Source: Streptomyces puniciscabiei
GTDB taxonomy: Bacteria > Actinomycetota > Actinomycetes > Streptomycetales > Streptomycetaceae
Direction of reading: 5' to 3'
Length of the DNA: 64,000 nucleotides
Assembly (NCBI RefSeq): GCF_006715785.1
Contig: NZ_VFNX01000007.1
Coordinates: 62,001-126,000, forward strand
The translations under genes were made by a program, and so were the position numbers. Within the stretch, counting starts at the first letter, position 1. Every line of letters starts with the position of its first letter. The notes beneath the pieces are model-generated. The model had not been told where the DNA came from. It saw only the letters and a program-made list of their open reading frames with translations, and did no database searches. Shown one piece after another: positions 11,442 to 46,145 of the stretch.

Positions 11442-12254
11442 TCACCCGGTGAAGCGGTCGAGCACCCGCCCGGTCCCGGGGTCGATGTCCAGCGCCGGAT
11501 CGCCGCCGAGCACGGCCCGTTGCAGACGCTGCAGACGCTGCGAGGGTTCGATGCCCAGCTCCTTCACCAGGTGGCCGCGCAGGTTCTGGAAGACCTCCAG
11601 AGCGGCGGAGGCGCGCCCCGCCCGGTAGAAGGCCACCATGGACTGGGCGTGCAGACCCTCGTGGAACGGGTGCCGGGCGGTCAGCGCCGTGAGTTCGGTG
11701 AGCAGTTCGGCGTGGCGGCCGAGCCGCAGTTCGACGTCGTTGCGCCGCTCCAGCACCCCGAGGCGGCTCTCCTCCAGGCGCATCGCCTCGATCTCGAGCA
11801 GCGGCCCGGTGCGCACGTCGACCAGGGCGGGGCCCCGCCAGAGGCCGAGGGCCTGCCGGAAGAGATCCGCGGCCTTCTGGTTGTCGCCGCGGTCGTAGGC
11901 GCGCTGACCGAGGGAGGACAGCCGGTCGTACTCGTGTACGTCGATGCTGCCGGGCTCCGCGTGCAGGAGGTATCCCCCCTGCCGGGTCAGCAGCACTTCC
12001 TTGGAGCCACCGGGTTCGCCCTGCAGCGCTTTGTCCATGCAGCGCCGGAGCTGGAGGATGTACGTCTGCAGCGTGGTGAGCGCGCTGCGCGGCGGGGCGT
12101 CGCCCCAGATCTCCTCCATCAGCGCGGACACCGGCAGGACCTGGTTGGCGTAGATGGCGAGCAGTGTCAGGATCTGCCGCGGCTTCGCCGCTGTGGGCAG
12201 TATCGAAACGCCCCTCAGCTCGGCGTCCAAAGACCCCAGAACGAAGATTCGCAT
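11442..12254 (-). CDS. SARP-family transcriptional activator
   Basis: A 270-residue pathway activator. The N-terminal OmpR-like winged helix (MRIFVLGSLDAELRG, KPRQILTLLAIYANQVLPVSAL, SALTTLQTYILQLRR) is followed by the bacterial transcriptional activation domain (YDRLSSLGQRAYDRGD, AALEVFQNLRGHLVKELGIEPS). ATG 12254 follows AAGGGGGG; the frame extends 14 codons upstream without conservation. SARPs bind direct repeats spaced in multiples of 11 bp upstream of cluster promoters. Candidate CTTGAG repeats occur at 13145-13194, 18197-18213 and 28709. It is a good candidate for the main activator of the polyketide and sugar genes. Confidence 0.92.
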   Translation of the reverse strand: MRIFVLGSLDAELRGVSILPTAAKPRQILTLLAIYANQVLPVSALMEEIWGDAPPRSALTTLQTYILQLRRCMDKALQGEPGGSKEVLLTRQGGYLLHAEPGSIDVHEYDRLSSLGQRAYDRGDNQKAADLFRQALGLWRGPALVDVRTGPLLEIEAMRLEESRLGVLERRNDVELRLGRHAELLTELTALTARHPFHEGLHAQSMVAFYRAGRASAALEVFQNLRGHLVKELGIEPSQRLQRLQRAVLGGDPALDIDPGTGRVLDRFTG

Positions 12255-12425
12255 GCGGCCCCCCTTGTCTCTGTCGTAGGACCTCGAACCTCCCATGCGG
12301 CCCGCTCGACGGACAGTGCGTCACTCCCCCTCTGCCAGGTGTTTTCGTCCTGCTCGGGGTGTGACCGATTCATGCCCGTCCGCGGGACGGGCCGCCCGGC
12401 CGGCCGAAAGGGTCCCGGACATGGC

Positions 12426-22069: not shown

Positions 22070-23101
22070 ATGCACCCGACCCGACCGGCCGCACCGGCCA
22101 CGACCCGCATCCTGGTGACCGGCGGCGCCGGCTTCATCGGCTCCCACTACGTCCGTACGCTGCTCGGCCCCGAGGGCCCCGGCGACGTCGCGGTCACCGT
22201 CCTGGACAAGCTGACGTACGCGGGCAGTCCTGCCAACCTCGACGAGGTACGGGAGCACCCGGGGTTCTCCTTCGTGCAGGGGGACATCTGCGACCCCGAG
22301 CTGGTCGGGAAGCTGATGGCCGAGCACGACCAGGTGGTGCACTTCGCCGCCGAGTCGCACGTCGACCGGTCGATCGACGGCGGCGCCGAGTTCGTGCGCA
22401 CGAACGTGGTCGGCACGCACACGCTCGTGGACGCGGCGCACCGGGCCGGCATCGAGGTCTTCGTGCACATCTCCACCGACGAGGTGTACGGCTCGATCGA
22501 CGAGGGCTCCTGGCCCGAGAGCCACCCGCTGCAGCCCAACTCGCCGTACTCCTCGACGAAGGCCTCCAGCGACCTGATCGCGCTGTCGTACCACCGCACC
22601 CACGGTCTCGACGTCCGTGTGACGCGCTGTTCCAACAATTACGGCCACCACCAGTTCCCCGAGAAGGTCATCCCGCTGTTCGTGACCAACCTCCTCGACG
22701 GCAGGAAGGTCCCGCTGTACGGCGACGGCGGCAACGTCCGCGACTGGCTGCACATCGACGACCACGTGCAGGGCATCGAACTGGTCCGCACCCGGGGCCG
22801 CGCGGGCGAGACCTACAACATCGGGGGCGGCACCGAACTCTCCAACCGGGAGCTGACCGGCGCGCTGCTCGCGGCGTGCGGCGGCACCTGGGAGGACAGC
22901 GTCGCATACGTCGAGGACCGCAAGGGACACGACCGCCGCTACTCCGTCGACTGCACGAAGATCCGCGAGGAGCTGGGCTACGCACCCCGCAGGAGCTTCG
23001 AGGAGGGCCTGGCCGAAACCGTGCGCTGGTACCGGGAGAACCGGACCTGGTGGGAACCCCTCAGGCAGCGGACGATGGAGGTGGAGCCTCCACTTGAGTG
23101 A
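22070..23101 (+). CDS. rmlB: dTDP-glucose 4,6-dehydratase
   Basis: A 343-residue extended SDR that converts dTDP-glucose to dTDP-4-keto-6-deoxyglucose with bound NAD. Visible are the Rossmann motif ILVTGGAGFIGSHYV, VVHFAAESHVDRSIDG, the STDEVYGSI substrate loop and the catalytic YSSTKAS, followed by RCSNNYGHHQFPEK. A short extra N-terminus (residues 1 to 12) precedes the fold. It closes the sugar operon. The RiPP precursor gene begins 108 bases later on the same strand with no visible terminator between, so readthrough into the RiPP genes is likely. Confidence 0.96.
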   Translation: MHPTRPAAPATTRILVTGGAGFIGSHYVRTLLGPEGPGDVAVTVLDKLTYAGSPANLDEVREHPGFSFVQGDICDPELVGKLMAEHDQVVHFAAESHVDRSIDGGAEFVRTNVVGTHTLVDAAHRAGIEVFVHISTDEVYGSIDEGSWPESHPLQPNSPYSSTKASSDLIALSYHRTHGLDVRVTRCSNNYGHHQFPEKVIPLFVTNLLDGRKVPLYGDGGNVRDWLHIDDHVQGIELVRTRGRAGETYNIGGGTELSNRELTGALLAACGGTWEDSVAYVEDRKGHDRRYSVDCTKIREELGYAPRRSFEEGLAETVRWYRENRTWWEPLRQRTMEVEPPLE

Positions 23102-23209
23102 GAACTTCACCTGTCGCCGATGATCCGGACACTGTCCGTCAGGCGCCGCGCCCGCGAAGAATTCCGGCCATTGGAGCACCAGCCGACCACGTCAGTCAGG
23201 ATCTCTCCG

Positions 23210-23575
23210 ATGAGCCACGCCACCATCGCTTCCGTCGATCTCGTCGCCCCGCGCTCGACGCGCGTCACCGGAACGGCCACCAACCGCCCGCTCCTGGTGG
23301 TCGAGACCCTCGACCACTCCGCCGGCTCCACCGTGCAGTTCACCTACACCTACGCCATGGACCCCGGACCCGATGGCGGCACTCCCCTGTTCACGTTCTG
23401 CGCCCAGGCCGCTCCGGCCGACACCCCCCAGTTCACGTTCTGCGCCCAGGCCGCTGCGACCGACAACCCCCTGTTCACGTTCTGCGCCCAGGCCGCGTCC
23501 GCCGACGCCTCCGGTGCATGGACCGCGGCTCCCGCGGCCGTCGAGGGGAACGCGGTCGCGGGGGCCTGGATATGA
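23210..23575 (+). CDS. Candidate azol(in)e RiPP precursor peptide with three repeated cores
   Basis: A 121-residue peptide. Residues 1 to about 57 have no Cys and look like a leader (starts MSHATIASVDLVAPRSTRV). They are followed by three 14-residue units, TPLFTFCAQAAPAD, TPQFTFCAQAAATD and NPLFTFCAQAASAD, then a Cys-free Ala/Gly-rich tail. The only cysteines are the three in the repeats, each in the context Phe-Thr-Phe-Cys. ATG 23210 is chosen because AGGA lies 8 bases upstream; the open frame extends 30 codons further without a convincing start signal. Its stop overlaps the cyclodehydratase ATG (ATGA), so the two are co-translated. I know no described family with this core. Confidence 0.8.
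   Translation: MSHATIASVDLVAPRSTRVTGTATNRPLLVVETLDHSAGSTVQFTYTYAMDPGPDGGTPLFTFCAQAAPADTPQFTFCAQAAATDNPLFTFCAQAASADASGAWTAAPAAVEGNAVAGAWI
23381..23506 (+). repeat. Three tandem 42-bp repeats in the precursor gene
   Basis: The units run 23381-23422, 23423-23464 and 23465-23506. The central stretch TTCACGTTCTGCGCCCAGGC is identical in all three, while the ends vary, mostly in the codons for the residues between cores. Identity at the nucleotide level suggests recent duplication or gene conversion of a core unit. Confidence 0.95.
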
Positions 23576-25869
23576 CTTCCGGATCGCTGCACCCCCGGCG
23601 ATCCGGACCGGCCGCCCTACAGGACGGCTCCGCTCTCGTGGGGTTCAGGCACCACCTACGTCCCGCGAACGTCCCCGGCGAGGCGACCTACCTGGTCTCT
23701 CGCCGGGGCGTTACCGCCCTGCGCGGCGCCCTCGCCGAGGTGCTCGTCCCGCTGCTCGACGGCACCCGGTCACTCGCCGAGATCCTGCGTGCCGCCGCGC
23801 CCGCGCTGACCGCCGAGGAGACACAGCACGGGCTGCACCTGCTCAGCGAGGCCGGGCTGCTCCGCTTCGAGCGCCTCGCCCCGGCCGCGACGGACACCGA
23901 CCCGGTCGCCGAGGCGTACTGGGACCTGGCGGGCCTCGACGGCGCCCGGGCGGCGGCGGGGCTCGCCGGCTCCCGGCTCCGCGTCCTGCCGCTCGCCGGT
24001 GTGGACGCAGGACCGGTGCTCGCCGCCGGCGCCGGGTCCGGCATCACGGTGACCGAGACGGACGCGGACCTCACGCTGGTGCTGTGCGACGACTACCTCT
24101 CCCCGGAGCTGAAGCGGGTCGACGTCGAGCACCGGGCGGCGGGCAAGCCGTGGCTGCTCGCCCGGCTGTGCGGCTACGAACCGTGGATCGGCCCGTTCTT
24201 CCAGGCGGACGAGGGACCGTGCTGGTCGTGTCTGGCCGCCCGGCTCGCACAGCACCGCGGCTACGAGGCACCGCTCCAGCAGGCGCTGGGGCTCGACGGC
24301 CCGCTCGGCCGGCCGGCCGCCTCGCTGCCGGCGGGACGCGCCCTGGCCGCACAGAGCGTGGTCCTCGAGGCCGCCAAGTGGCTGGCCGGGCTGCGCTACG
24401 CCGACCAGGGGTCCGTCCGTACGGTCGACACCCTCCACCTGCAGACCCGGGTCCACGCCGTGTCCCGTGTCCCCCAGTGCCCCTCCTGCGGGGACCCCGG
24501 GCTGACGGCGCGGCGCGTGTCCGCACCCTTCGTCCCCGTGTCGCGGCCCAAGGCGGGACAGGGCGGCAGCGGCCACCGGGCACTCAGTCCCGACCAGCTG
24601 CTGAAGCGCTACGGGCACCTGGTGAGCCCGGTCACCGGCATCGTCCCGGTGCTCGAACCCTCCCCCGGCGCACCGGAGTTCGCCACCACCTACGTCTCGG
24701 GGCGCAACCTCGCGATGCGGCAGAACGGCCTGGCCGGGCTGCGCTCGCTCAGCGGCGGCAAGGGCCTGACCGACACCGAGGCCCGCACGAGTGCGCTGTG
24801 CGAGGCGGTGGAGCGCTACAGCGGCACACGGCACGGCGACGAACCGGTCGTGGTGGACACCCTGCGCGCTCTCGGCGACGAGGCCGTCCACCCCAACTCC
24901 TGCCAGCTGTACGCGGACCGGCAGTTCCGCGAGCGGGACCGCTGGAACCGCTCGGGATCGCCCTTCCACCACGTGCCCGAGCCCTTCGACGAGAACCGGC
25001 CGGTGGAGTGGACCCCCGTGTGGTCCCTGACCGAGCGGCGCAGGCGGCTCCTGCCCACGTCGATGCTCTACTTCCCGTCCGGCACCCCGGCCCCGCACGG
25101 GCCCTACGCCGACTCCAACGGCAACGCGGCGGGCAGCAGTCCGGAGGACGCCCTGCTGCAGGGTTTCCTGGAGCTGGTGGAGCGGGACGCGGTGGCCCTG
25201 TGGTGGTACAACCGCACCCGGCAGCCGGCAATCGACCTGGACGCGTTCGACGAGCCGTACATCGGGCGGCTGCGCGAGGGATACCGGAAGCTGGGCCGGG
25301 AGCTGTGGGCACTGGACCTCACCTCGGATCTCGGCATCCCCGCGATGGTGGCCCTCTCCCGGCGCACCGACGGGCCCACCGAGGACATCGTCTTCGGCTT
25401 CGGCGCCCACTTCGATCCCGCCATCGCGCTGCGCAGGGCGCTCACCGAGATGGGGCAGCTGCTGCCGGCCGTGGGCGCGGGCCGCCCCGGCGAGGGGTAC
25501 GGCATCACGGACCCCCTCCCGGTCCGCTGGTGGCGCGAGGCGACGCTCGCCAACCAGCCGTATCTGGCGCCCGATCCGGCCACCCGGCCGCGTACTCCGG
25601 GCCACTGGACCTACGTGGTGCGCACCGACCTGCTCGACGACGTCCGGGCCGTCACCGAACTCGTCCGCGCCAAGGGCATGGAACTGCTCGTCCTGGACCA
25701 GACCCGGCCGGACATCGGAATGCCGGTGGTCAAGGTGATGGTGCCGGGGCTCAGGCACTTCTGGGCCCGGTACGCGCCGGGCAGGCTCTTCGACGTACCG
25801 GTCACGCTCGGACGCCTCTCCGGCCCTACACCGTACGAGCAGCTGAATCCGATCCCTCTCTTCGTGTGA
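23572..25869 (+). CDS. Fused E1-like (ThiF-type)/YcaO azoline cyclodehydratase
   Basis: A 765-residue protein that would convert Cys, Ser or Thr of the precursor to azolines using ATP. Residues 1 to about 330 resemble the E1-like leader-binding half, with a structural zinc site from CWSC and CPSC. Residues about 370 to 765 are the YcaO domain, with ATP-site segments SGGKGLTDTEARTSALCEAVERYSG-like (split here: SGGKGLTDTEA, then CEAVERYSG), DSNGNAAGSS and FLELVERDAVALWWYNR. The C-terminus ends PIPLFV, the proline-rich tail typical of azoline-forming YcaO proteins. Both halves in one chain is the usual fused arrangement of linear azole peptides. It is coupled to the precursor by an ATGA overlap. 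Confidence 0.9.
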   Translation: MTSGSLHPRRSGPAALQDGSALVGFRHHLRPANVPGEATYLVSRRGVTALRGALAEVLVPLLDGTRSLAEILRAAAPALTAEETQHGLHLLSEAGLLRFERLAPAATDTDPVAEAYWDLAGLDGARAAAGLAGSRLRVLPLAGVDAGPVLAAGAGSGITVTETDADLTLVLCDDYLSPELKRVDVEHRAAGKPWLLARLCGYEPWIGPFFQADEGPCWSCLAARLAQHRGYEAPLQQALGLDGPLGRPAASLPAGRALAAQSVVLEAAKWLAGLRYADQGSVRTVDTLHLQTRVHAVSRVPQCPSCGDPGLTARRVSAPFVPVSRPKAGQGGSGHRALSPDQLLKRYGHLVSPVTGIVPVLEPSPGAPEFATTYVSGRNLAMRQNGLAGLRSLSGGKGLTDTEARTSALCEAVERYSGTRHGDEPVVVDTLRALGDEAVHPNSCQLYADRQFRERDRWNRSGSPFHHVPEPFDENRPVEWTPVWSLTERRRRLLPTSMLYFPSGTPAPHGPYADSNGNAAGSSPEDALLQGFLELVERDAVALWWYNRTRQPAIDLDAFDEPYIGRLREGYRKLGRELWALDLTSDLGIPAMVALSRRTDGPTEDIVFGFGAHFDPAIALRRALTEMGQLLPAVGAGRPGEGYGITDPLPVRWWREATLANQPYLAPDPATRPRTPGHWTYVVRTDLLDDVRAVTELVRAKGMELLVLDQTRPDIGMPVVKVMVPGLRHFWARYAPGRLFDVPVTLGRLSGPTPYEQLNPIPLFV

Positions 25870-26001: not shown

Positions 26002-27255
26002 ATGGACGGCACGGACCCGACCAAACGCGCAGCGCATTCCGCCCAGCCCCAGGACCACGGCAGCGCAGCCACCAGAACCGCCCGCGGCGTTCTGGTGGCT
26101 GCGCTCGCGTGTTATCTGGGCATCACCTTTCTCAATATCCTTTCGCAGCGGCTCGGCCCCTACAAACTGGCCCTCGCCGTGGTCTGCCTGATACTGGTGT
26201 TCCTGCTGCAGCTCGTGCACTCGGCACCCGGCGCCTCCGCGGCACGGCCGCGCACCAAGCTGCTCACCCTGGCCGCGCAGGGCATCCTGTCGTACCTGCC
26301 GCTGATCTGGTTCGGGGTGTCCTGGGGGGCGATGGCGGGCTTCTTCGCCGGATCCGTGCTGCTGCTCCTGCCGGCCAGGGCGGGCTGGACGGTGTACGGG
26401 CTGACGACGCTCAGCCTGCTCGTCCCCGGCTTCCTGCACGACCTGGCGGTCGTCGACATGGTGTACATGTGCCAGACCACCGCGCTCACCGGTCTCGTGG
26501 TGTACGGCCTGAGCCGGCTGACCGGCCTGGTCGACCAGTTGCACCGGGCCCGCACCGACCTCGCCCGACTCGCCGTCAGCAACGAGCAGCTGAGGTTCTC
26601 CAGGGACCTGCACGACCTGCTCGGGTACAGCCTCTCGGCGATCACCCTCAAGAACGAGCTGATCCACCGCCTCATCCCGGCCAACCCCCTCAGGGCCCGC
26701 GAGGAGGTCGACGAGGTACTCGTCATCTCCCGCCAGGCACTGGCCGATGTGCGCCGGGTCGCCCGCGGTTACCGGGAGATGTACCTCGACTCCGAACTCC
26801 CCTCCGCCGAGTCGGTGCTTGCCGCCGCCAGGGTCTCGGTCACCGTCGAGACCCATGACGCCATCGGGCGGCTGGGACCGGCGACGTCCACCGTGCTGGC
26901 CACGGTGCTGCGGGAGGGCGTCACCAACCTGCTGCGGCACTCCAAGGCGTCGTACTGCCGGATCTCCGCGCGGGTCGAGGACGGTCTGGTCCGCCTCACG
27001 ATCGTCAACGACGGTCTGGTGACCGGCCACCAGGTCCCCTCGCCGCACAGCGGCAGCGGCCTGGGCAACCTCCAGCGGCGGCTGGAGGACATCGGGGGAC
27101 GTCTGATCGTGCGGCGCCTGCTCGACGGTTCCGGCACGGACGTCTTCCGGATCACCGCCGAGGCACCGCTCCAGGAGGCGCGGGCCGACGAGCCGTTGCC
27201 GGGCCGGAGCACGTCCGGCAAGGAGGCGTACGGCCGGGCCGGCAATATCGCGTGA
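26002..27255 (+). CDS. Sensor histidine kinase (NarL/HisKA_3 type)
   Basis: A 417-residue membrane kinase. About five to six hydrophobic segments span residues 28 to 175, with no sizeable extracellular domain, suggesting that it senses a signal within the membrane. The dimerisation/phosphoacceptor helix has RFSRDLHDLLGYSLSAITL with the His to be phosphorylated; the ATPase part has REGVTNLLRHSKASYC (N box) and GSGLGNLQRRL (G box). It pairs with the response regulator 104 bases downstream. It follows the cyclodehydratase gene after 132 bases, so it probably controls, or answers to, the RiPP; two-component pairs of this kind often sit beside peptide-antibiotic genes. Confidence 0.92.
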   Translation: MDGTDPTKRAAHSAQPQDHGSAATRTARGVLVAALACYLGITFLNILSQRLGPYKLALAVVCLILVFLLQLVHSAPGASAARPRTKLLTLAAQGILSYLPLIWFGVSWGAMAGFFAGSVLLLLPARAGWTVYGLTTLSLLVPGFLHDLAVVDMVYMCQTTALTGLVVYGLSRLTGLVDQLHRARTDLARLAVSNEQLRFSRDLHDLLGYSLSAITLKNELIHRLIPANPLRAREEVDEVLVISRQALADVRRVARGYREMYLDSELPSAESVLAAARVSVTVETHDAIGRLGPATSTVLATVLREGVTNLLRHSKASYCRISARVEDGLVRLTIVNDGLVTGHQVPSPHSGSGLGNLQRRLEDIGGRLIVRRLLDGSGTDVFRITAEAPLQEARADEPLPGRSTSGKEAYGRAGNIA

Positions 27256-27358: not shown

Positions 27359-27967
27359 ATGATACGGATCCTGCTGGCCGAGGACATGCACATGGTCCGC
27401 GGCGCGCTGGTGGCTCTGCTCGATCTGGAGGAAGACCTGAAGGTGGTCTCCGAGCTCGAACGCGGCGACGAGATCCTGAGCGCGGCGCGCGAACACCGGC
27501 CGGACGTGGCCATCATCGACATCGACCTGCCCGGCCTCGACGGCCTCAGCGCGGCCGAACTCCTGCACGAGCGTCTCCCCGAGTGCCGGGCCCTGATCCT
27601 CACCAGCCTGGGCCGCCCCGGCACCCTGCGCCGGGCGATGTCCGCGCACGTCGCGGGATTCCTCCTCAAGGACGCCCCGCCCGGCGAACTCGCCCAGGCC
27701 GTGCGCCGTGTCGTCGCCGGCCAGCGGGTGGTCGACCCCCAGCTGGCCCTGGCCGCCTGGGGCGGCGCGGAGAGCCCGCTGACCACCCGCGAGACCGAGG
27801 TGCTGCAACTGGCCGCGCAGGGCACGGAACCGCAGGAGATCGCCGCACACCTCCGGCTCTCCGTGGGCACGGTGCGCAACTACCTCACGACCGCCGTGAC
27901 CAAGCTCAACGCGCGTAACCGCGTCGACGCGATCCGCATCGCCCGCGACTCGGGCTGGCTGCTGTGA
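27359..27967 (+). CDS. Response regulator, NarL/LuxR family
   Basis: A 202-residue regulator. The receiver domain starts MIRILLAEDMHMVRGAL, with the phosphoacceptor Asp54 in IIDIDLPGLDG, the Thr/Ser switch in ALILTSLGRPG and Lys in FLLKDAPPGEL. The C-terminal LuxR helix-turn-helix is SPLTTRETEVLQLAAQG followed by VGTVRNYLTTAVTKL. ATG 27359 is chosen because the receiver fold begins at once and GGGGAA lies upstream; the frame extends 26 codons further back. It is the cognate partner of the kinase at 26002. Its DNA targets are unknown. Confidence 0.92.
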   Translation: MIRILLAEDMHMVRGALVALLDLEEDLKVVSELERGDEILSAAREHRPDVAIIDIDLPGLDGLSAAELLHERLPECRALILTSLGRPGTLRRAMSAHVAGFLLKDAPPGELAQAVRRVVAGQRVVDPQLALAAWGGAESPLTTRETEVLQLAAQGTEPQEIAAHLRLSVGTVRNYLTTAVTKLNARNRVDAIRIARDSGWLL

Positions 27968-28010: not shown

Positions 28011-28646
28011 TCAGGGCGCGGCCACCGTCAGCCCGGCCCCCGCCAGATAGCCGAGGATCTCCAGGGTCAACTCGGCGGGCAGCGGAAGCACCTCGACCAT
28101 CGCCTCCGGCGTCATGGGCCAGGCCAGCAGCGACACCACCCACATCGCCTCCGGGCGGTGGATCTCCACCCGGTGCCCCAGGGTGTGGCACTGCACCAGG
28201 AAGGTGTCCCCCCGCACGGTGATCGTCGCGGTGGGCCGCAGCCGCACCCTGCGCCACGCCGGCAGCCGGACGGTGGCGAAGCGGGCGCTCCGGCCCACCG
28301 GCACCACGGAGAGCACCGGCCCCCTGAGATCGTCCAGGGACAGTGTCCTGATCACCACGTGGGAGATTCCGCGGAGCGCCGACAGGACCACCGCGAAGGT
28401 CTCGTGCCCGGGGACCGTCCGGCCCTCCGGCGGCGGCAGGTTGGCGAGCAGCACGGGACCGAGTTCCATCCGGCGCAGCGCCTCGGCCACCACGGGACCG
28501 GGGTCCTCGACCCGCTCCGTGCCCTGCGGACCGCTGAGCACCAGCGTCCGCCCTTCCTCGTCCCAGCCGACCACCGTGTCCTCGCGCAGGGACCACAGGT
28601 GGTGGATGCGCAGGGGGGCGTCTTCCGCGTGGAAAGTCACGGTCAA
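28011..28646 (-). CDS. Stand-alone protein resembling the N-terminal half of SagB-type azoline dehydrogenases
   Basis: A 211-residue protein without a recognised catalytic motif. Its order of segments (HHLWSLREDTVVGWDEEG, EALRRMELGPVLLANL, LLSVVPV-like LSVVPVGRSARF, VEIHRPEAMWVVSLLAWP, LEILGYLAGAGLTVAA) recalls, from memory, the winged-helix N-terminal region of SagB/ThcOx dehydrogenases. In full proteins an FMN nitroreductase domain follows; here the chain stops exactly where it should begin, and the bases beyond the stop encode nothing similar. It lies on the strand opposite to the RiPP genes and converges on the response regulator. It may be a truncated dehydrogenase, a substrate-binding remnant or a protein working with an enzyme elsewhere. 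Confidence 0.55.
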   Translation of the reverse strand: MTVTFHAEDAPLRIHHLWSLREDTVVGWDEEGRTLVLSGPQGTERVEDPGPVVAEALRRMELGPVLLANLPPPEGRTVPGHETFAVVLSALRGISHVVIRTLSLDDLRGPVLSVVPVGRSARFATVRLPAWRRVRLRPTATITVRGDTFLVQCHTLGHRVEIHRPEAMWVVSLLAWPMTPEAMVEVLPLPAELTLEILGYLAGAGLTVAAP

Positions 28647-28926
28647 CCACCTCCTGAATGCGGCGGTACCGGCGGAGGTGCGGCCCCGCCCACCGGCCCG
28701 CTCGCGTCCTTGAGTATGGAGCCGCGTACGGCGGTTCCGGCAGCGAACAGATCACATCGAAAGCATGAGGAAATCACGGGTCTTTCACCGCACCCGTCCG
28801 AGTTGTGCTCCGGCTCGCTCGGCGCGATCCAGTCCTTCTTGAGGCCGTTCTGGCCCAATGGTCGGCGTCCGGGCACCCGTGACGAATTCACGGACCGTGC
28901 CGAACAACCCGCCAGGAGGGGGACCC

Positions 28927-29205
28927 ATGCCCGAGCTCCAGTTCACCGAGGACGACCTCAAACGCATCCTGTACGCCGCGGCAGGCACCGAGGAGGAGGG
29001 CGTCGCCGACGGCGACTTCTCCGACACCGAGTTCCAGGTGCTCGGCTACGAGTCGCTCGCGCTCCTGGAGACCTGCGGCCGCATCGAGCGCGAGTACGGC
29101 GTCGCGCTCGCCGACCACACGCTCGCCGAGGCGGTCACCCCGCGTCTGCTGGTCGAGGCCGTGAACCGGTACCTCGGCGAGCAGGCCGTGGCCGCCACCC
29201 GCTGA
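28927..29205 (+). CDS. Type II PKS acyl carrier protein
   Basis: A 92-residue ACP. The phosphopantetheine attachment site is LGYESLALLETCGRIE; the residue before the Ser is Glu rather than the canonical Asp, the same feature as in the partial ACP at 1-361. AEAVTPRLLVEAVNRYL is helix IV. ATG 28927 follows the strong site AGGAGGGGG; the frame extends 23 codons upstream. It carries the poly-beta-ketone chain for the KSalpha/CLF pair at 31277-33831. In this cluster the order is ACP, ketoreductase, aromatase, KSalpha, CLF, rather than the common KSalpha-CLF-ACP. Confidence 0.9.
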   Translation: MPELQFTEDDLKRILYAAAGTEEEGVADGDFSDTEFQVLGYESLALLETCGRIEREYGVALADHTLAEAVTPRLLVEAVNRYLGEQAVAATR

Positions 29206-29226
29206 CGGACGCCCGAGGAGGCGAGC

Positions 29227-30021
29227 ATGACTCAGCACACGACACAGGAGAGCCGTACCGCGCTGGTCACAGGCGCGACGAGCGGCATCGGACTTGCCGT
29301 CGCGCGGCTGCTGGCGACCCAGGGGCACCGGGTGTACATCGGTGCGCGCGACGCCCAGAACGTGGCCGCGACGGTCAAGGAACTCCAGCAGCAGGGCCTG
29401 GACGTGGACGGCTCGACGCTCGACGTGCGGTCCGCGGACAGCGTGACGGCGTTCGTGCAGGCGGCCGTGGACCGGTTCGGCACCGTCGACGTCCTGGTCA
29501 ACAACGCGGGCCGGTCCGGCGGCGGCGTCACCGCCGACCTGACCGACGAGCTCTGGGAGGACGTGATCGACACCAACCTGAACAGCGTCTTCCGGATGAC
29601 CCGTGCGGTGCTGAACACCGGTGGCATGCGGCACAAGTCGCGCGGACGGATCATCAACATCGCGTCCACCGCGGGCAAGCAGGGCGTGGTCCTCGGCGCC
29701 CCGTACTCCGCCTCGAAGCACGGCGTGGTCGGTTTCACCAAGGCGCTCGGCAACGAGCTGGCGCCGACCGGCATCACCGTGAACGCGGTCTGCCCCGGCT
29801 ACGTCGAGACCCCGATGGCCCAGCGGGTGCGGGCCGGATACGCGGCGGCGTACGACACCACCGAGGACAAGATCCTGGAGAAGTTCCAGGCGAAGATCCC
29901 GCTCGGCCGCTACTCCACCCCCGAGGAGGTCGCGGGTCTCGTCGGCTATCTCGCCTCCGACACTGCCGCCTCCATCACCGCGCAGGCCCTCAACGTCTGC
30001 GGCGGCCTCGGCAACTTCTGA
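29227..30021 (+). CDS. Type II PKS C9 ketoreductase (ActIII-like)
   Basis: A 264-residue SDR. The NADPH motif VTGATSGIGLAVARLL, LVNNAGRSGGG, the catalytic Ser in IINIASTAGKQG, the Tyr/Lys in APYSASKHG and the ending ALNVCGGLGNF are nearly diagnostic of ActIII-type enzymes. They reduce the C9 carbonyl of the full-length poly-beta-ketone. The gene follows the ACP after 21 bases, with GGAGGCGAGC before ATG 29227. Its presence means that the aromatic polyketide is reduced at C9, as in anthracycline-, angucycline- or benzoisochromanequinone-type scaffolds. Confidence 0.95.
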   Translation: MTQHTTQESRTALVTGATSGIGLAVARLLATQGHRVYIGARDAQNVAATVKELQQQGLDVDGSTLDVRSADSVTAFVQAAVDRFGTVDVLVNNAGRSGGGVTADLTDELWEDVIDTNLNSVFRMTRAVLNTGGMRHKSRGRIINIASTAGKQGVVLGAPYSASKHGVVGFTKALGNELAPTGITVNAVCPGYVETPMAQRVRAGYAAAYDTTEDKILEKFQAKIPLGRYSTPEEVAGLVGYLASDTAASITAQALNVCGGLGNF

Positions 30022-30048
30022 CCCGCACCCCCGACAGGAGAGACGACG

Positions 30049-30984
30049 ATGACCATCCGTGAAGTGGCGCACGAGATCACGGTCTCGGCGCCGGCCGATG
30101 TGGTCTACCGGCTGCTCGCCGAGGTGGAGAACTGGCCCCGGATCTTCCCGCCCACCATTTACGTCGACCACGTCGAACGCGGCGAGCGCGAGGAGCGCAT
30201 CCGGATCTGGGCCACCGCCAACGGCGAGGCCAAGAACTGGACCTCGCACCGCACCCTGGACCCCGGGGCGCGCCGCATCACCTTCCGCCAGGAGGTCACC
30301 GCGCCTCCGGTCGCCGCCATGGGCGGCACCTGGATCATCGAGGAGCTGTCCGCGTCCCAGGCCCGCATCCGGCTGCTGCACGACTACCGGGCGATCGACG
30401 ACGACCCGGCCGGCCTGCGGTGGATCGACGAGGCGGTCGACCGCAACTCCCGCTCCGAACTGGCCGCCCTCAAGGAGAACGTCGAACTGGCCTACTCGAC
30501 CGAGGACGTGACGTTCTCCTTCGAGGACGCCGTACTCGTCCAGGGCGCCGCCAAGGACGTCTACGACTTCGTCAACGAGGCTCACCTGTGGAGCGAGCGC
30601 CTGCCGCACGTGGCGAGCGTCCGGCTCGACGAGGACACGCCGGGCCTGCAGACCCTGGAGATGGACACCAGGGCCAAGGACGGCTCGACGCACACCACCA
30701 AGTCGTACCGGGTGACCTTCCCGCCGGGCAAGATCGCCTACAAGCAGGTCACCCTGCCCGCGCTGATGACCGTGCACACCGGCATCTGGACGTTCACCGA
30801 GACCCCGGACGGGGTGCGGGCCGCCTCGCAGCACACCGTGACCCTCAACACGGCCAACATCGAGCGGGTCCTCGGCCCCGGGGCCACCGTCGCCGGCGCG
30901 CGCTCCTACGTGCACGAGGCGCTCAGCACCAACAGCCTCGCCACGCTGGGCCACGCCAAGGCCTACGCGGAGGCCAGGCGCTGA
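30049..30984 (+). CDS. Polyketide aromatase/cyclase, didomain (ActVII-like)
   Basis: A 311-residue protein with two START/SRPBCC-type halves: residues 1 to about 150 (HEITVSAPADVVYRLLAEVENWPRIFPP) and about 155 to 311 (EDAVLVQGAAKDVYDFVNEAHLWSERLPH). Didomain aromatases of this kind close and aromatise the first ring (C7-C12) of C9-reduced polyketides. This agrees with the ketoreductase directly upstream, 27 bases away. ATG 30049 follows ACAGGAGAGACG. A 292-base gap separates it from the KSalpha gene. Confidence 0.93.
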   Translation: MTIREVAHEITVSAPADVVYRLLAEVENWPRIFPPTIYVDHVERGEREERIRIWATANGEAKNWTSHRTLDPGARRITFRQEVTAPPVAAMGGTWIIEELSASQARIRLLHDYRAIDDDPAGLRWIDEAVDRNSRSELAALKENVELAYSTEDVTFSFEDAVLVQGAAKDVYDFVNEAHLWSERLPHVASVRLDEDTPGLQTLEMDTRAKDGSTHTTKSYRVTFPPGKIAYKQVTLPALMTVHTGIWTFTETPDGVRAASQHTVTLNTANIERVLGPGATVAGARSYVHEALSTNSLATLGHAKAYAEARR

Positions 30985-31276
30985 CGGCCGCGCTCCGGCC
31001 CGCCCGCCCGCAGGCGGCGCGGGCCGTCGCCGTGCGCCCCGGAAGACGCCGGCCCCGGCCGCCCCGCCCGCCCGTCCGGTGCGGCAGGCAGGCCATCACG
31101 CCGCCCTCCTCCAGGCAGCGGCGCAACCCCGCGCCGGTGACGGCGAGGCCCGGCTGGGTCGGCCCTCCAGCACGGTTTGAGTCCCCCGGTGCACCGTCGA
31201 GTTGCTTGCGGGATCCGCCGGGGGCACACCCAGGACTCCGCGCCCGCACGCCCATCCCGGCAAACGGAGGAGCCAC

Positions 31277-32557
31277 ATGGAACGACGCGTAGTCATCACC
31301 GGGATCGGGGTGATCGCGCCGGGCGGCATCGGGCTGAAGGAGTTCTGGTCACTGCTGACGTCCGGCCGCACGGCCACCCGGTCGATCACCCGCTTCGACA
31401 CGTCCCAGTTCCGCTCGCGGATCGCCGCCGAGGCCGACTTCGACCCCGAGCAGGCGGGCCTGTCGCCCCAGGAGACGAGCCGGATGGACCGCGCGGCGCA
31501 GTTCGCGGTCGTGTGCGCCCGGGAGGCCATGGCCGACAGCGGCCTGGACTTCGCGGGGCTCGACCCGTACCGCGTCGGCGTCACCGTCGGCAGTGCGGTG
31601 GGGGCCACGACGTCCCTGGACACCGAGTACAACGTGGTCAGCGACGGCGGCCGTAAGTGGCTGGTCGACCACCAGTACACCAGCAGGCACCTCTTCGGTC
31701 ACTTCGTGCCGAGCTCGTTCGCCTCCGAGGTGGCCTGGGCTGTGGGCGCCCAGGGCCCGGCCGCCGTGGTCTCCACCGGCTGCACCTCGGGCCTGGACGC
31801 CGTCGGGCATGCCGCCGAGCTGATCCGTGAGGGCTCGGCCGACATCATGGTGGCCGGAGCCACCGAGGCCCCCATCTCCCCCATCACCGTGGCCTGCTTC
31901 GACGCCATCAAGGCGACCTCGCCGCGCAACGACGACCCCGAGCACGCCTCGCGCCCCTTCGACGCCTCCCGCAACGGCTTCGTGCTCGGCGAGGGTGCCG
32001 CCGTGTTCGTCCTGGAGGAACTGGGCCGGGCCAGGGCCCGCGACGCCCATCTGTACGCCGAGATCTCCGGCTTCGCCTCGCGCTGCAACGCGTACCACAT
32101 GACGGGCCTGCGGCCCGACGGCAAGGAGATGGCGGAGGCCATCCGGGTCGCCCTGGACCAGGCCCGCCTCGATCCGACGGCCATCGACTACGTCAACGCG
32201 CACGGTTCGGGAACCAAGCAGAACGACCGCCACGAGACCGCCGCGTTCAAGAAGAGCCTCGGCGCGCACGCCTACGACACCCCGGTCAGCTCCATCAAGT
32301 CGATGATCGGCCACTCCCTGGGGGCCATCGGCTCGCTGGAGATAGCCGCGAGCACGCTCGCCATCGAGCACGGGGTGATCCCGCCCACGGCCAACCTGCA
32401 CGAACCCGACCCCGAATGCGACCTGGACTACACGCCGCTGACGGCACGCGAAATGAACACCGAACGGGTCCTCACCGTCGGGAGCGGCTTCGGCGGCTTC
32501 CAGAGCGCGATGGTGCTGACCAGGCCCGACGGCACACGGAAAGGCAGTGTCCGATGA
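31277..32557 (+). CDS. Type II PKS ketosynthase alpha subunit
   Basis: A 426-residue KSalpha of the aromatic class. It opens [17 protein letters not shown], has the nucleophile Cys169 in [16 protein letters not shown], His in [14 protein letters not shown] and His in [12 protein letters not shown], and ends [13 protein letters not shown]. With the CLF it condenses malonyl units into the poly-beta-ketone. ATG 31277 follows ACGGAGGAGCC. The stop overlaps the CLF start (ATGA), as in nearly all such pairs. Upstream, GTTTGAGTC (31175-31183) and TCGAGTTG (31197-31204) may belong to a SARP-type promoter. Confidence 0.96.
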
Positions 32558-33831
32558 GCACGCCGACGAGCACCCGGGCGACCGGGACGACTCCCCCGCA
32601 GCCGTCCGCAGGCCCCGCCCACCCGGTGTTCACCGGGGTGGGCGTCGCCGCGCCCAACGGCCTCGGCCGCGACCGCTGGTGGCAGGCCACCCTGGCCGGA
32701 CAGAGCGGCATCGGGCCGGTGTCACGGTTCGACGCCCGCGGGTATCCGGCACAGCTCGCCGGGGAGGTCCCCGGCTTCGACCCGGCCGAGCACATCCCCA
32801 GCCGGCTGCTGCCGCAGACCGACCACATGACACGGCTCGCGCTCACCGCCGCGGACGAGGCGATCGCCGACAGCGGACTCGACCCGGCCGGCGAGCCGGA
32901 GTTCGCATCCGGAGTGGTCACCGCCGCGTCCGCGGGCGGGTTCGAGTTCGGCCAGCGGGAGCTGGAGGCCCTGTGGGGCAAGGGCAGCCGCTACGTCAGC
33001 GCCTACCAGTCCTTCGCCTGGTTCTACGCCGTCAACACCGGCCAGATATCCATCAGGCACGGTCTGCGCGGGCCCAGCGGCGTCATCGTCAGCGAACAGG
33101 CCGGGGGGCTCGACGCGGTCGCCCAGGCCCGCCGGCAGCTGCGCAAGGGCAGCCGGCACATCGTCACCGGCGGGGTGGACGGGGCGATCTGCCCCTGGGG
33201 CTGGGCCGCGCTGCTGGCCGGCGGCCACATGAGCATCGTCTGCGACCCCGCCCGCGCGTTCCTGCCGTTCGACGCGGCCGCCAGCGGCCAGGTGGCCGGT
33301 GAGGGCGGTGCGATCCTCGTCCTGGAGGACGCGGCCGCCGCCCGGGACCGCGGCGCCCGGCCCTACGGGGCGCTCGCGGGGTACGCGGCCACCTTCGACC
33401 CGCGGCCCGGCAGCGGGGGCGAACCGGGCCTCGGGCGGGCCGCGGAGGGCGCGCTCGCCGACGCGGGCCTGAGCGCGGACGCGGTCGACGTGGTGTTCGC
33501 GGACGCCGCCGGGGTGCCGGAACTCGACCGGGCCGAGGCCGAGGCGATCTGCGCGCTGTTCGGGCCGCGCGGCGTGCCCGTCTCCGTGCCCAAGACCATG
33601 ACGGGCCGGCTCGCCGCGGGCGGCGGTTCACTGGATCTGGCCGCCGCCCTGCTGGCGCTGCGCGACGGCGTGATCCCGCCCTCGGTGCACATCACCGGCG
33701 ACGGCCTGCCGGAGCACCTCGCCCTGGACCTCGTCACGGACGCCCCCCGCGAACTGCCGCTGCGCACCGCGCTGGTGCTGGCCCGGGGGCAGGGCGGCTT
33801 CAACGCGGCCACCGTGGTGACGGCTCTGTGA
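32554..33831 (+). CDS. Type II PKS chain length factor (KSbeta)
   Basis: A 425-residue CLF. The position of the KS nucleophile is Gln, at about residue 182 in [18 protein letters not shown], the hallmark of classical CLFs; it controls chain length in the heterodimer. An N-terminal tail of about 25 Thr/Pro-rich residues precedes [18 protein letters not shown] 32554 overlaps the KSalpha stop. A 24-bp hairpin follows its stop. It contrasts with the CLF-like proteins at 2296 and 3636, which lack the Gln. Confidence 0.95.
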
Positions 33832-45528: not shown

Positions 45529-45768
45529 ATGCCGTCACTGAACGTGTCCTTCTCCGACGAGGAAATGGAAGGCGTCCGCGCCGCCGCCGCCGCCGAGGGC
45601 AAGAGCCTCAAGCAGTACCTGCACGATCTCGGCGTGCGGGAGATGCACCGCAAGCGGTTCGTCGCCGGCGCCGCCGCCTGGGCCGACCGGCTGCGCGGCG
45701 AGTTCGACGATGCGTTCCCCGAGGAGGTTCCCCCCTCCCGGGGTGACGGCGGGGCTGCGGCCGCCTGA
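45529..45768 (+). CDS. Antitoxin, ribbon-helix-helix type
   Basis: A 79-residue protein. The N-terminal MPSLNVSFSDEEMEGVRAAAAAEG and KSLKQYLHDLGVREMHRKR form a strand-helix-helix DNA-binding unit. An acidic, flexible tail (AWADRLRGEFDDAFPEEVPP) would wrap the toxin. The toxin gene starts within its stop codon (TGATG). It probably represses its own promoter at the GGTACC palindrome. Toxin-antitoxin pairs commonly stabilise large plasmids, which fits the replicon genes downstream. Confidence 0.85.
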   Translation: MPSLNVSFSDEEMEGVRAAAAAEGKSLKQYLHDLGVREMHRKRFVAGAAAWADRLRGEFDDAFPEEVPPSRGDGGAAAA

Positions 45769-46145
45769 TGGTTCTGCACATCGACGTCTCCTGGCTGCTC
45801 GACGTCCAGGAGGCGGCCCTCGGGCACGAGGACGTGACGGTGGCCGACTACTCGGCGCTGGTGGCGGCCGTCGCGCGGCACAGGACCAAGATGCCGACGC
45901 TGGCGACGGCCGATCCGGATGCCGCCTGGCGCGCGGCCGCACTGCTGCACACGATCGTGCGTCTCGAACCGCTTCCGCACCGCAACAGCCTTTTTGCCGC
46001 TTTCGTGGCCGCCCAGTACATGGACCAGTGCGGTGAGGGCATCGACCCGCCGTACGGCGCCCTGTCCGATCTCGTCCGGAAGGTCCGGGACGCCCGCCTC
46101 GGTGTCTATGCCGTCGCCGAGACGCTGCGCTCCTGGAAGATCTGA
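45768..46145 (+). CDS. Doc/Fic-like toxin with degenerate active-site motif
   Basis: A 125-residue helical protein like the small Doc toxins of Streptomyces: HIDVSWLLDVQEAALGHEDVTVADYSALVAAVARHR, then AAALLHTIVRLEPLPHRNSLFAAFVAAQYM and GIDPPYGALSDLVRKVRDARLGVYAVAETLRSW. In Doc the loop has the pattern HxFxDxNKR; here the corresponding PLPHRNSLFAA keeps His and Asn but not the basic pair. The protein may still be toxic by a changed mechanism, or be inactive. It is coupled to the antitoxin by a one-base overlap. Confidence 0.8.
   Translation: MVLHIDVSWLLDVQEAALGHEDVTVADYSALVAAVARHRTKMPTLATADPDAAWRAAALLHTIVRLEPLPHRNSLFAAFVAAQYMDQCGEGIDPPYGALSDLVRKVRDARLGVYAVAETLRSWKI

Follow-up and report, generated by a model that had tools for sequence, protein, structure and literature searches.

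A repeated-core precursor gene overlaps a fused YcaO gene

The window analysed here is a 64,000-nucleotide stretch of the Streptomyces puniciscabiei genome (contig NZ_VFNX01000007.1, positions 62,001 to 126,000), in which a small gene for a repetitive peptide is coupled to a gene for a YcaO enzyme. The peptide gene (23210..23575, plus strand, as are the parts that follow) begins with ATG and encodes 121 aa. Its leader region (23210..23380; MSHA..., RPLLVVETLDHSAGST) is kept in relatives and includes a cysteine-less FTYTY unit. Three 14-residue core units follow (23381..23506, residues 58-99: TPLFTFCAQAAPAD, TPQFTFCAQAAATD and NPLFTFCAQAASAD), each with one Cys in FTFCAQ (C64, C78 and C92; codons 23399-23401, 23441-23443 and 23483-23485), and then a C-terminal follower ending VAGAWI (23507..23572). 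A sequence-only reading of this DNA had already described the peptide and its three units; both the open reading frame (ORF) call and the homologues bear the gene out, and Tandem Repeats Finder returned the same array (period 42, 3.0 copies, 88% matches, score 203). The YcaO gene (23572..25869, plus strand, 765 aa) begins at an ATG within a 4-nt ATGA overlap with the precursor ORF and ends ...NPIPLFV, again as that reading had it. Its product fuses an E1-like, leader-binding part (TIGR03882, 145 bits, cut-off 36.9) to a YcaO cyclodehydratase (TIGR03604, 268.7 bits, cut-off 219.25; PF02624, E 3.7e-104), and the closest solved structures are MusD, LynD and TruD. An E1-like partner fused to YcaO beside a precursor of leader and Cys-bearing core defines an azol(in)e type of ribosomally synthesised and post-translationally modified peptide (RiPP), that is, a linear azol(in)e-containing peptide or thiazole/oxazole-modified microcin (LAP/TOMM), and by its sequence the window pair would belong to that class.

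A search of 5.8 billion proteins returned 18 precursor homologues at E<=10, query included; 17 of these, the query among them, lie at E<=0.011 and the weakest at 0.067. By a regular-expression count all 18 carry 2 or 3 units, and they share the MSHA start (16/18), RPLLVVE (14/18) and the WI end (15/18), so that the repeats are beyond chance. FTYTY (residues 44-48) directly follows the leader motif in the window precursor; six relatives (P0011, P0014-P0018) have FTFCA, FTLCA or FCLCA at the same distance, and FTYTY may be a fourth unit that lacks its cysteine. Unit number varies further between named genomes: seven in Paractinoplanes lichenicola (L004), two in S. diastatochromogenes (L068) and a single diverged unit in Streptacidiphilus pinicola (L005). 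Since the leader is conserved in relatives while unit number ranges from 1 to 7, the FTFC units appear to behave as cores of an azol(in)e-type RiPP.

For wider comparison we took the best 80 of 160 relatives and dropped two loci that start inside the YcaO gene (L022 and L037), leaving 78, which with the window make 79 loci. One locus (L073) fell out of the YcaO tree, which has 78 rows. The five YcaO genes of the window's precursor family form one clade (support 100), and far from being absent or unrepeated beside these orthologues, the peptide has repeated units at four of the five. The C-terminus PIPLFV is the commonest over the 79 loci (22), followed by PVPLFV (18) and PVPLFL (12). We picked a precursor-like ORF upstream of YcaO in 69/79 loci, 53 with the leader motif, and none in 10/79; at least three of the 69 picks (L019, L032, L048) are clearly wrong and are absent from the 44 loci used for the distance correlations below. 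The upstream peptide often has a related leader motif, of the LVIEDLD type, and in some loci a leader that we take to be NHLP-like. More distant loci mostly have, by eye, a single core region (e.g. ALFTICI, TVCAV, CICW, CFCL). Cys is present in 49/53 parsed cores. The cores at L028 and L031 read ALFSFTA/ALFTFTA, that is, FSFT or FTFT with Thr where the window's FTFC has Cys; there the chemistry may be methyloxazoline only, or none. At L049 leader motif and core are repeated together (LVIDYLDRP...LYGCATGM twice), another route to multiplied cores.

YcaO proteins can also form thioamides, amidines and macroamidines. That the window enzyme performs one of these reactions on its core is very unlikely, given the E1-like fusion of the LynD/TruD type, the Pro-containing C-terminus such as PIPLFV, the SagB oxidase in the four sister loci tested and a count of zero TfuA matches (PF07812) in the window's genome. 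A separate YcaO-TfuA pair does lie near the plasmid locus L085.

The SagB-like protein lacks its nitroreductase part

Downstream, on the minus strand, lies a SagB-like gene (28011..28646, 211 aa) whose product is homologous to the N-terminal part of longer SagB-family proteins. Neither TIGR03605 nor PF00881 matched it, and it does not qualify as a SagB-type FMN dehydrogenase; the four sister loci tested encode a full SagB-family dehydrogenase (TIGR03605, PF22767 and PF00881). An ORF of only 201-255 aa, covering the N-terminal part, is found in the window and 15 other loci. Because 142 relatives of similar length exist (120 listed; the search was limited to 0.55-1.75 times the query length), the short protein is a family and not debris. 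Its structural model (pLDDT 90.8) matches ThcOx (E 2.9e-10, TM-score 0.70 by query) and, weakly, the RiPP recognition element (RRE) of PbtF. Since the window protein lacks the oxidase domain, a thiazoline is more likely than a thiazole, and the window product is probably an unoxidised azoline. A nitroreductase partner acting in trans was considered: three TIGR03605 matches sit on contig C1 of the genome beside another YcaO and look like a separate system. That second E1/YcaO-like locus (G000:C1:204460-208882; L002, L136-L138), with its three SagB-type domain matches, is apparently unrelated to the cassette described next.

The pair belongs to a conserved regulatory cassette

Immediately beyond the YcaO gene, on the plus strand, are genes for a sensor histidine kinase (26002..27255; HisKA_3, PF07730), with a homologue in 74/79 loci, and for a NarL/LuxR-type response regulator (27359..27967; PF00072 and PF00196). 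The kinase model (pLDDT 78.8; helices 22-48, 53-74, 83-122, 125-138 and 150-227) predicts five or six transmembrane (TM) spans and lacks an extracellular domain; hydropathy alone picked out three segments only. Further away on the minus strand is the gene for an activator of the SARP family (11442..12254; PF03704 and PF00486).

To compare loci, genes lying up to 10 kb away and encoding >=70 aa, called by GC composition, were clustered into families; 24/78 loci have less than full flank on one side. We assessed the 40 largest families, 16 of which were put to Pfam by one member each. Over the 79 loci YcaO is found in 79, the HisKA_3 kinase in 72, the response regulator in 71, SARP in 40 and the SagB-like protein in 39; phosphopantetheinyl transferases (23) and ketosynthases (20) come next. 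A direct search placed kinase and regulator both near YcaO in 72/79. The sequence-only proposal of a multi-core azol(in)e precursor is supported by the variable unit number, the kept leader and the LynD/TruD/MusD-type enzyme; what it overlooked is the membership of the pair in a cassette with kinase, response regulator, SARP, SagB-like gene and the DNA box described below.

The biosynthetic neighbours of the cassette vary. In the window they are a type II polyketide synthase (PKS) with deoxysugar genes, the operon for acyl carrier protein (ACP), ketoreductase, cyclase, KS-alpha and KS-beta (28927..33831, plus strand; Pfam matches for ACP, cyclase and both ketosynthases, the ketoreductase by sequence only) being the presumed regulated cluster. 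On the linear plasmid of L085 they are aminobenzoate/acyl-carrier genes, and on another, that of L084, adenylation and halogenase genes. At least three NBC strains (L083, L084, L085 and other plasmid hits) carry the cassette on linear Streptomyces plasmids, and it therefore may pass between strains. We also note, at 45529-46145 of the window, a pair of short neighbouring ORFs (79 and 125 aa) that by eye resemble a toxin-antitoxin system.

This context bears on what the peptide is for. An ordinary stand-alone azol(in)e RiPP, an antibiotic or other bioactive compound co-clustered with the PKS, with kinase, regulator and SARP regulating the combined cluster and sensing something else, would be consistent with the complete azol(in)e biosynthetic pair and with multi-core precursors that raise yield, as may hold for the thiovarsolins according to the part of that work cited here (PMC6511847). 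We nevertheless regard it as unlikely, if worth keeping in view. The same cassette stands beside unrelated clusters, its cores vary with the sensor (below), and among the 40 largest families, about half of them annotated, we saw no constant exporter, immunity gene or protease/peptidase over the 79 loci; the commonest transporters among annotated families were MFS (13 loci), MMPL (9) and ABC (8). Because the precursor-YcaO pair belongs to a conserved cassette, the product is more likely a signal than a stand-alone antibiotic. The ketosynthases near 20/79 cassettes might alternatively suggest a RiPP-polyketide hybrid, with the peptide or an excised heterocycle built into the polyketide. This is extremely unlikely, as the cassette also lies beside NRPS-type/halogenase and other genes and no constant coupling enzyme appears among the larger families.

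A shared 37-bp box precedes cassette genes

Motif fitting seeded with the window's upstream DNA yielded a 37-bp box, RTGA-N5-TCAY-N9-RTGA-N6-CACTG, operator-like in having two RTGA...TCAY-like dyads 22 bp apart. Box 1 (23098..23134, plus strand), upstream of the precursor, matches exactly. Box 2 (28741..28777, minus strand; 1 mismatch), between the SagB-like gene and the ACP/PKS operon, is the second-best place in the genome, and box 3 (12337..12373, minus strand), upstream of the SARP gene, is degenerate, with one exact dyad inside at 12361-12373. In the 9.15-Mb genome box 1 is the only exact match and box 2 the only one with a single mismatch; of the three hits with two mismatches, two are reverse readings of boxes 1 and 2 and one lies elsewhere on C1. 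A reversed control pattern had no hit in that genome. Within the window, five hits at <=3 mismatches fall at three places, against 0.35 expected.

Across the 79 loci the box lies <=720 bp upstream of YcaO in 73 (58 exact, 11 with 1, 2 with 2 and 2 with 3 mismatches) and was not found within that distance in 6. It lies <=400 bp before the SARP match in 39/46 loci. An own SARP box is present in 17 loci and is mostly degenerate: exact at L012, with 1 mismatch at L032, L067 and L070, with 2 at L036 and L053, and with 3 at the other 11, window included. The minus-strand SagB-like gene is preceded by a box in 15/16 cases (<=3 mismatches; 6 at <=1 and 11 at <=2). Distances to SARP and SagB-like genes are counted from the start of the BLAST match, not the start codon. 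Kinase and regulator genes have a box before them in 1/74 cases each. Copies elsewhere are rare, and three of them lie ~100-300 bp before an ArsR-like regulator gene, in L010, L020 and L023 (Pfam for L020 only), a possible further target of the box.

The association extends to 392 genomes of the same genus. An exact box occurs in 72 and a YcaO match (E<=1e-100) in 116. The two coincide in 67 genomes; 5 carry the box without YcaO, 49 carry YcaO without the box, and 271 lack both (Fisher p 2.5e-37, relatedness ignored). The reversed control gave no hit in these 392 genomes. Of 76 exact boxes, 66 are 273-1765 bp upstream of the YcaO match on the same strand. A module-type SARP stands at the box in 4/5 box-only genomes, while the fifth (L094) has nothing recognisable there. 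One genome (G224) has two box copies near both chromosome ends, and the regulator is placed likewise in the genome of L068 (G398), as if in terminal inverted repeats.

As to what binds the box, SARP as sole binder is less likely, since exact boxes are found at L009, L020 and L006, whose genomes have no close SARP: the best match is 47% for L009 and 49% for L006, with none at E<=1e-50 for L020. Close response-regulator homologues exist in all three (75% for L006; 69% for L009 and 76% for L020, within the locus). In all eight genomes examined, five of them without one near YcaO, there is a regulator homologue of 68-97%, the next-best paralogues being <=58%. Direct control of the PKS operon through box 2 was also considered and not concluded, as at L005 and L068 the equivalent of box 2 has the SagB-like gene after it, with no adjoining PKS homologue found. 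A single dyad (28879-28891) lies before the ACP gene and is broken in L003.

Core peptides vary with the kinase sensor region

Median identity to the window is 70 for the response regulator, 57 for YcaO and 47.5 for the kinase. Among the regions of kinase, regulator and YcaO that were measured, the kinase TM region diverges most (39%); the phosphoacceptor region stands at 69%, the RRE part at 46% and the regulator domains at 71-73%. Mantel tests were carried out on the 44 loci in which all parts were available, among the 53/79 with the leader motif kept, and on a collapsed set of 33; the partial correlations control, by regression, for distances in the phosphoacceptor, ATPase, regulator, YcaO, RRE and E1 parts. 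Core distance correlated with kinase TM distance in both (partial r 0.334 for 44 loci and 0.257 for the collapsed set, both p 0.001) and with none of the other parts in either (p>0.1). When the loci were split into two subsets, the core-TM correlation held in each (r 0.497 and 0.289, p 0.001 in both cases). The leader, in turn, varied with the RRE (0.207, p 0.001, 44 loci; 0.15, p 0.015, collapsed) and, in the collapsed set, with the regulator (0.122, p 0.023). These correlations lend moderate support to the kinase as the putative receptor of the modified peptide.

They also bear on whether the ligand leaves the cell at all. The modified peptide or the leader might instead stay inside and bind the SARP or the response regulator. 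NosP, a regulator in a Streptomyces RiPP cluster, is reportedly responsive to ligands derived from the nosiheptide precursor peptide (Li 2018, by its title), the cassette has no constant exporter, and the SARP gene is under the box in many loci. Even so, we think such an intracellular ligand improbable. In the 19 loci that could be compared, SARP domains correlated with neither core nor leader distance, whereas the core correlated with the kinase TM region, and the exact boxes at L020, L009 and L006 occur where a SARP is lacking at E<=1e-50 or is only 47-49% identical. In nosiheptide clusters the RiPP itself is the antibiotic, whereas the cassette here adjoins unrelated clusters.

A candidate azoline peptide signalling system

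We propose that the locus is a cluster-situated signalling cassette that works in the manner of ComQXPA but with an azol(in)e RiPP as its basis, and that it activates the cluster next to it, a reading on which belief and doubt stand about level. The fused YcaO, guided by the leader, would modify the core cysteines and perhaps the preceding Ser/Thr; with three FTFC units here, thiazolines are the most likely outcome. The processed peptide would leave the cell by host export machinery, and the multi-TM histidine kinase encoded next door would sense it. The response regulator would then bind the 37-bp box, which may drive three targets: the precursor-YcaO unit, as positive feedback, the SagB-like gene and the SARP activator. 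The SARP would in turn switch on the adjacent antibiotic-type cluster, here that of the type II polyketide, which includes deoxysugar genes. Having three cores may serve simply to give more signal from each precursor.

Several observations weigh against this proposal. No protease or exporter is constant in the cassette, and 4/53 parsed cores have no Cys. As the box pattern was derived from the same loci, the 58/79 exact boxes are not independent evidence. In 22 of the 39 SARP cases the box is the precursor box itself, the two genes diverging from a common promoter region; the window's SARP has box 3, which carries 3 mismatches. Repeats 22 bp apart suit SARPs, according to the part of the literature cited here (PMC10972967), and a SARP could be the box binder. 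Control of the PKS is unproven, since other loci have box 2 at their SagB-like gene. The Mantel tests remove phylogeny only in part and are not fully specific. The expected leader-RRE link held in neither subset. In the first, leader distance also went with the TM region (0.37), and core distance with the phosphoacceptor region (0.234, p 0.013). In the second, core distance correlated with E1 (0.338), and leader distance with both the ATPase domain (0.323) and E1 (0.289). When SARP was added (19 loci), the TM effect fell to a weak 0.189 (p 0.047), below that of RRE/E1 (0.314). Lastly, an AfsA-type (A-factor biosynthesis) gene lies within 10 kb in 7 loci (L035 and six related); another signal may therefore act there, and two signal systems may meet in one cluster.

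A close parallel to the proposed cassette is ComQXPA of Bacillus (PMC4008528). In the portion of that census cited here, it likewise brings together genes for a pre-peptide that becomes modified and the enzyme responsible, for a multi-TM HisKA_3 (PF07730) kinase whose N-terminal sensor varies, and for a regulator, the best conserved of the components. All four gene types are encoded together here as well, with kinase and regulator near YcaO in most loci. The same portion lists none outside Firmicutes, and the window cassette is from actinomycetes. Because the modifying enzyme is a YcaO cyclodehydratase rather than the ComQ prenyltransferase, and the window core units have no Trp such as ComX bears, the cassette would work like ComQXPA but is no member of it; it differs further in its SARP output and shared operator-like box.

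Among azol(in)e systems, the cyanobactin heterocyclases LynD and TruD match the window YcaO over nearly its whole length, and cyanobactin precursors can carry repeated cores, as noted in the cited part of PMC6511847. Leader and cores are different here, a kinase, regulator and SARP are attached, and the window does not encode a PatA/PatG-type system: none of the 15 matches to the subtilisin-type protease domain (PF00082) in the genome is on the window's contig, C7. Thiovarsolins share the Streptomyces origin, the YcaO enzyme and a repeated-core precursor with variable unit number; as that paper's cited part describes them, they depend on YcaO-TfuA thioamidation of APR cores, in contrast to the E1-fused YcaO and FTFC cores here. 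Goadsporin, a Streptomyces azole RiPP, has a fused TOMM cyclodehydratase and B protein, according to the cited part of PMC4603692, and promotes secondary metabolism in actinomycetes at low concentration while inhibiting growth at higher. The idea of an azole-RiPP signal thus has a chemical precedent, from which the present cassette differs in its short repeated cores and adjoining kinase-regulator pair.

Searches of the open-licence literature found no description of the cassette, the box or the core, in keeping with the earlier view of the core as undescribed. Quorum-sensing logic based on a modified peptide is known; chemistry, phylum and output would be new. The cited part of a 2019 review gives five classes of hormone-like Streptomyces signals and names none as ribosomal (PMC6930871). 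Rather more tentatively, with doubt slightly outweighing belief, we suggest a new class of Streptomyces hormones, namely azoline peptide pheromones from a precursor-YcaO-kinase-regulator-SARP cassette. Such a cassette would be portable, carry an operator box of its own, plug into unrelated clusters and diversify into private signal-receptor pairs. The window's branch would have multiplied its units up to seven-fold in a single precursor, and there and in neighbouring branches the oxidase would have been cut to a domain without the nitroreductase (flavin) part.

If the cassette is a signalling system, a defined peptide might awaken silent clusters lying next to it, and the box would predict the responding genes; an exact box occurs in 72 of the 392 genomes sampled in the genus. 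Actinomycetes would gain a ComQXPA-like peptide quorum system with azoline chemistry, and a role would emerge for YcaO genes in polyketide clusters that have no evident product of their own.

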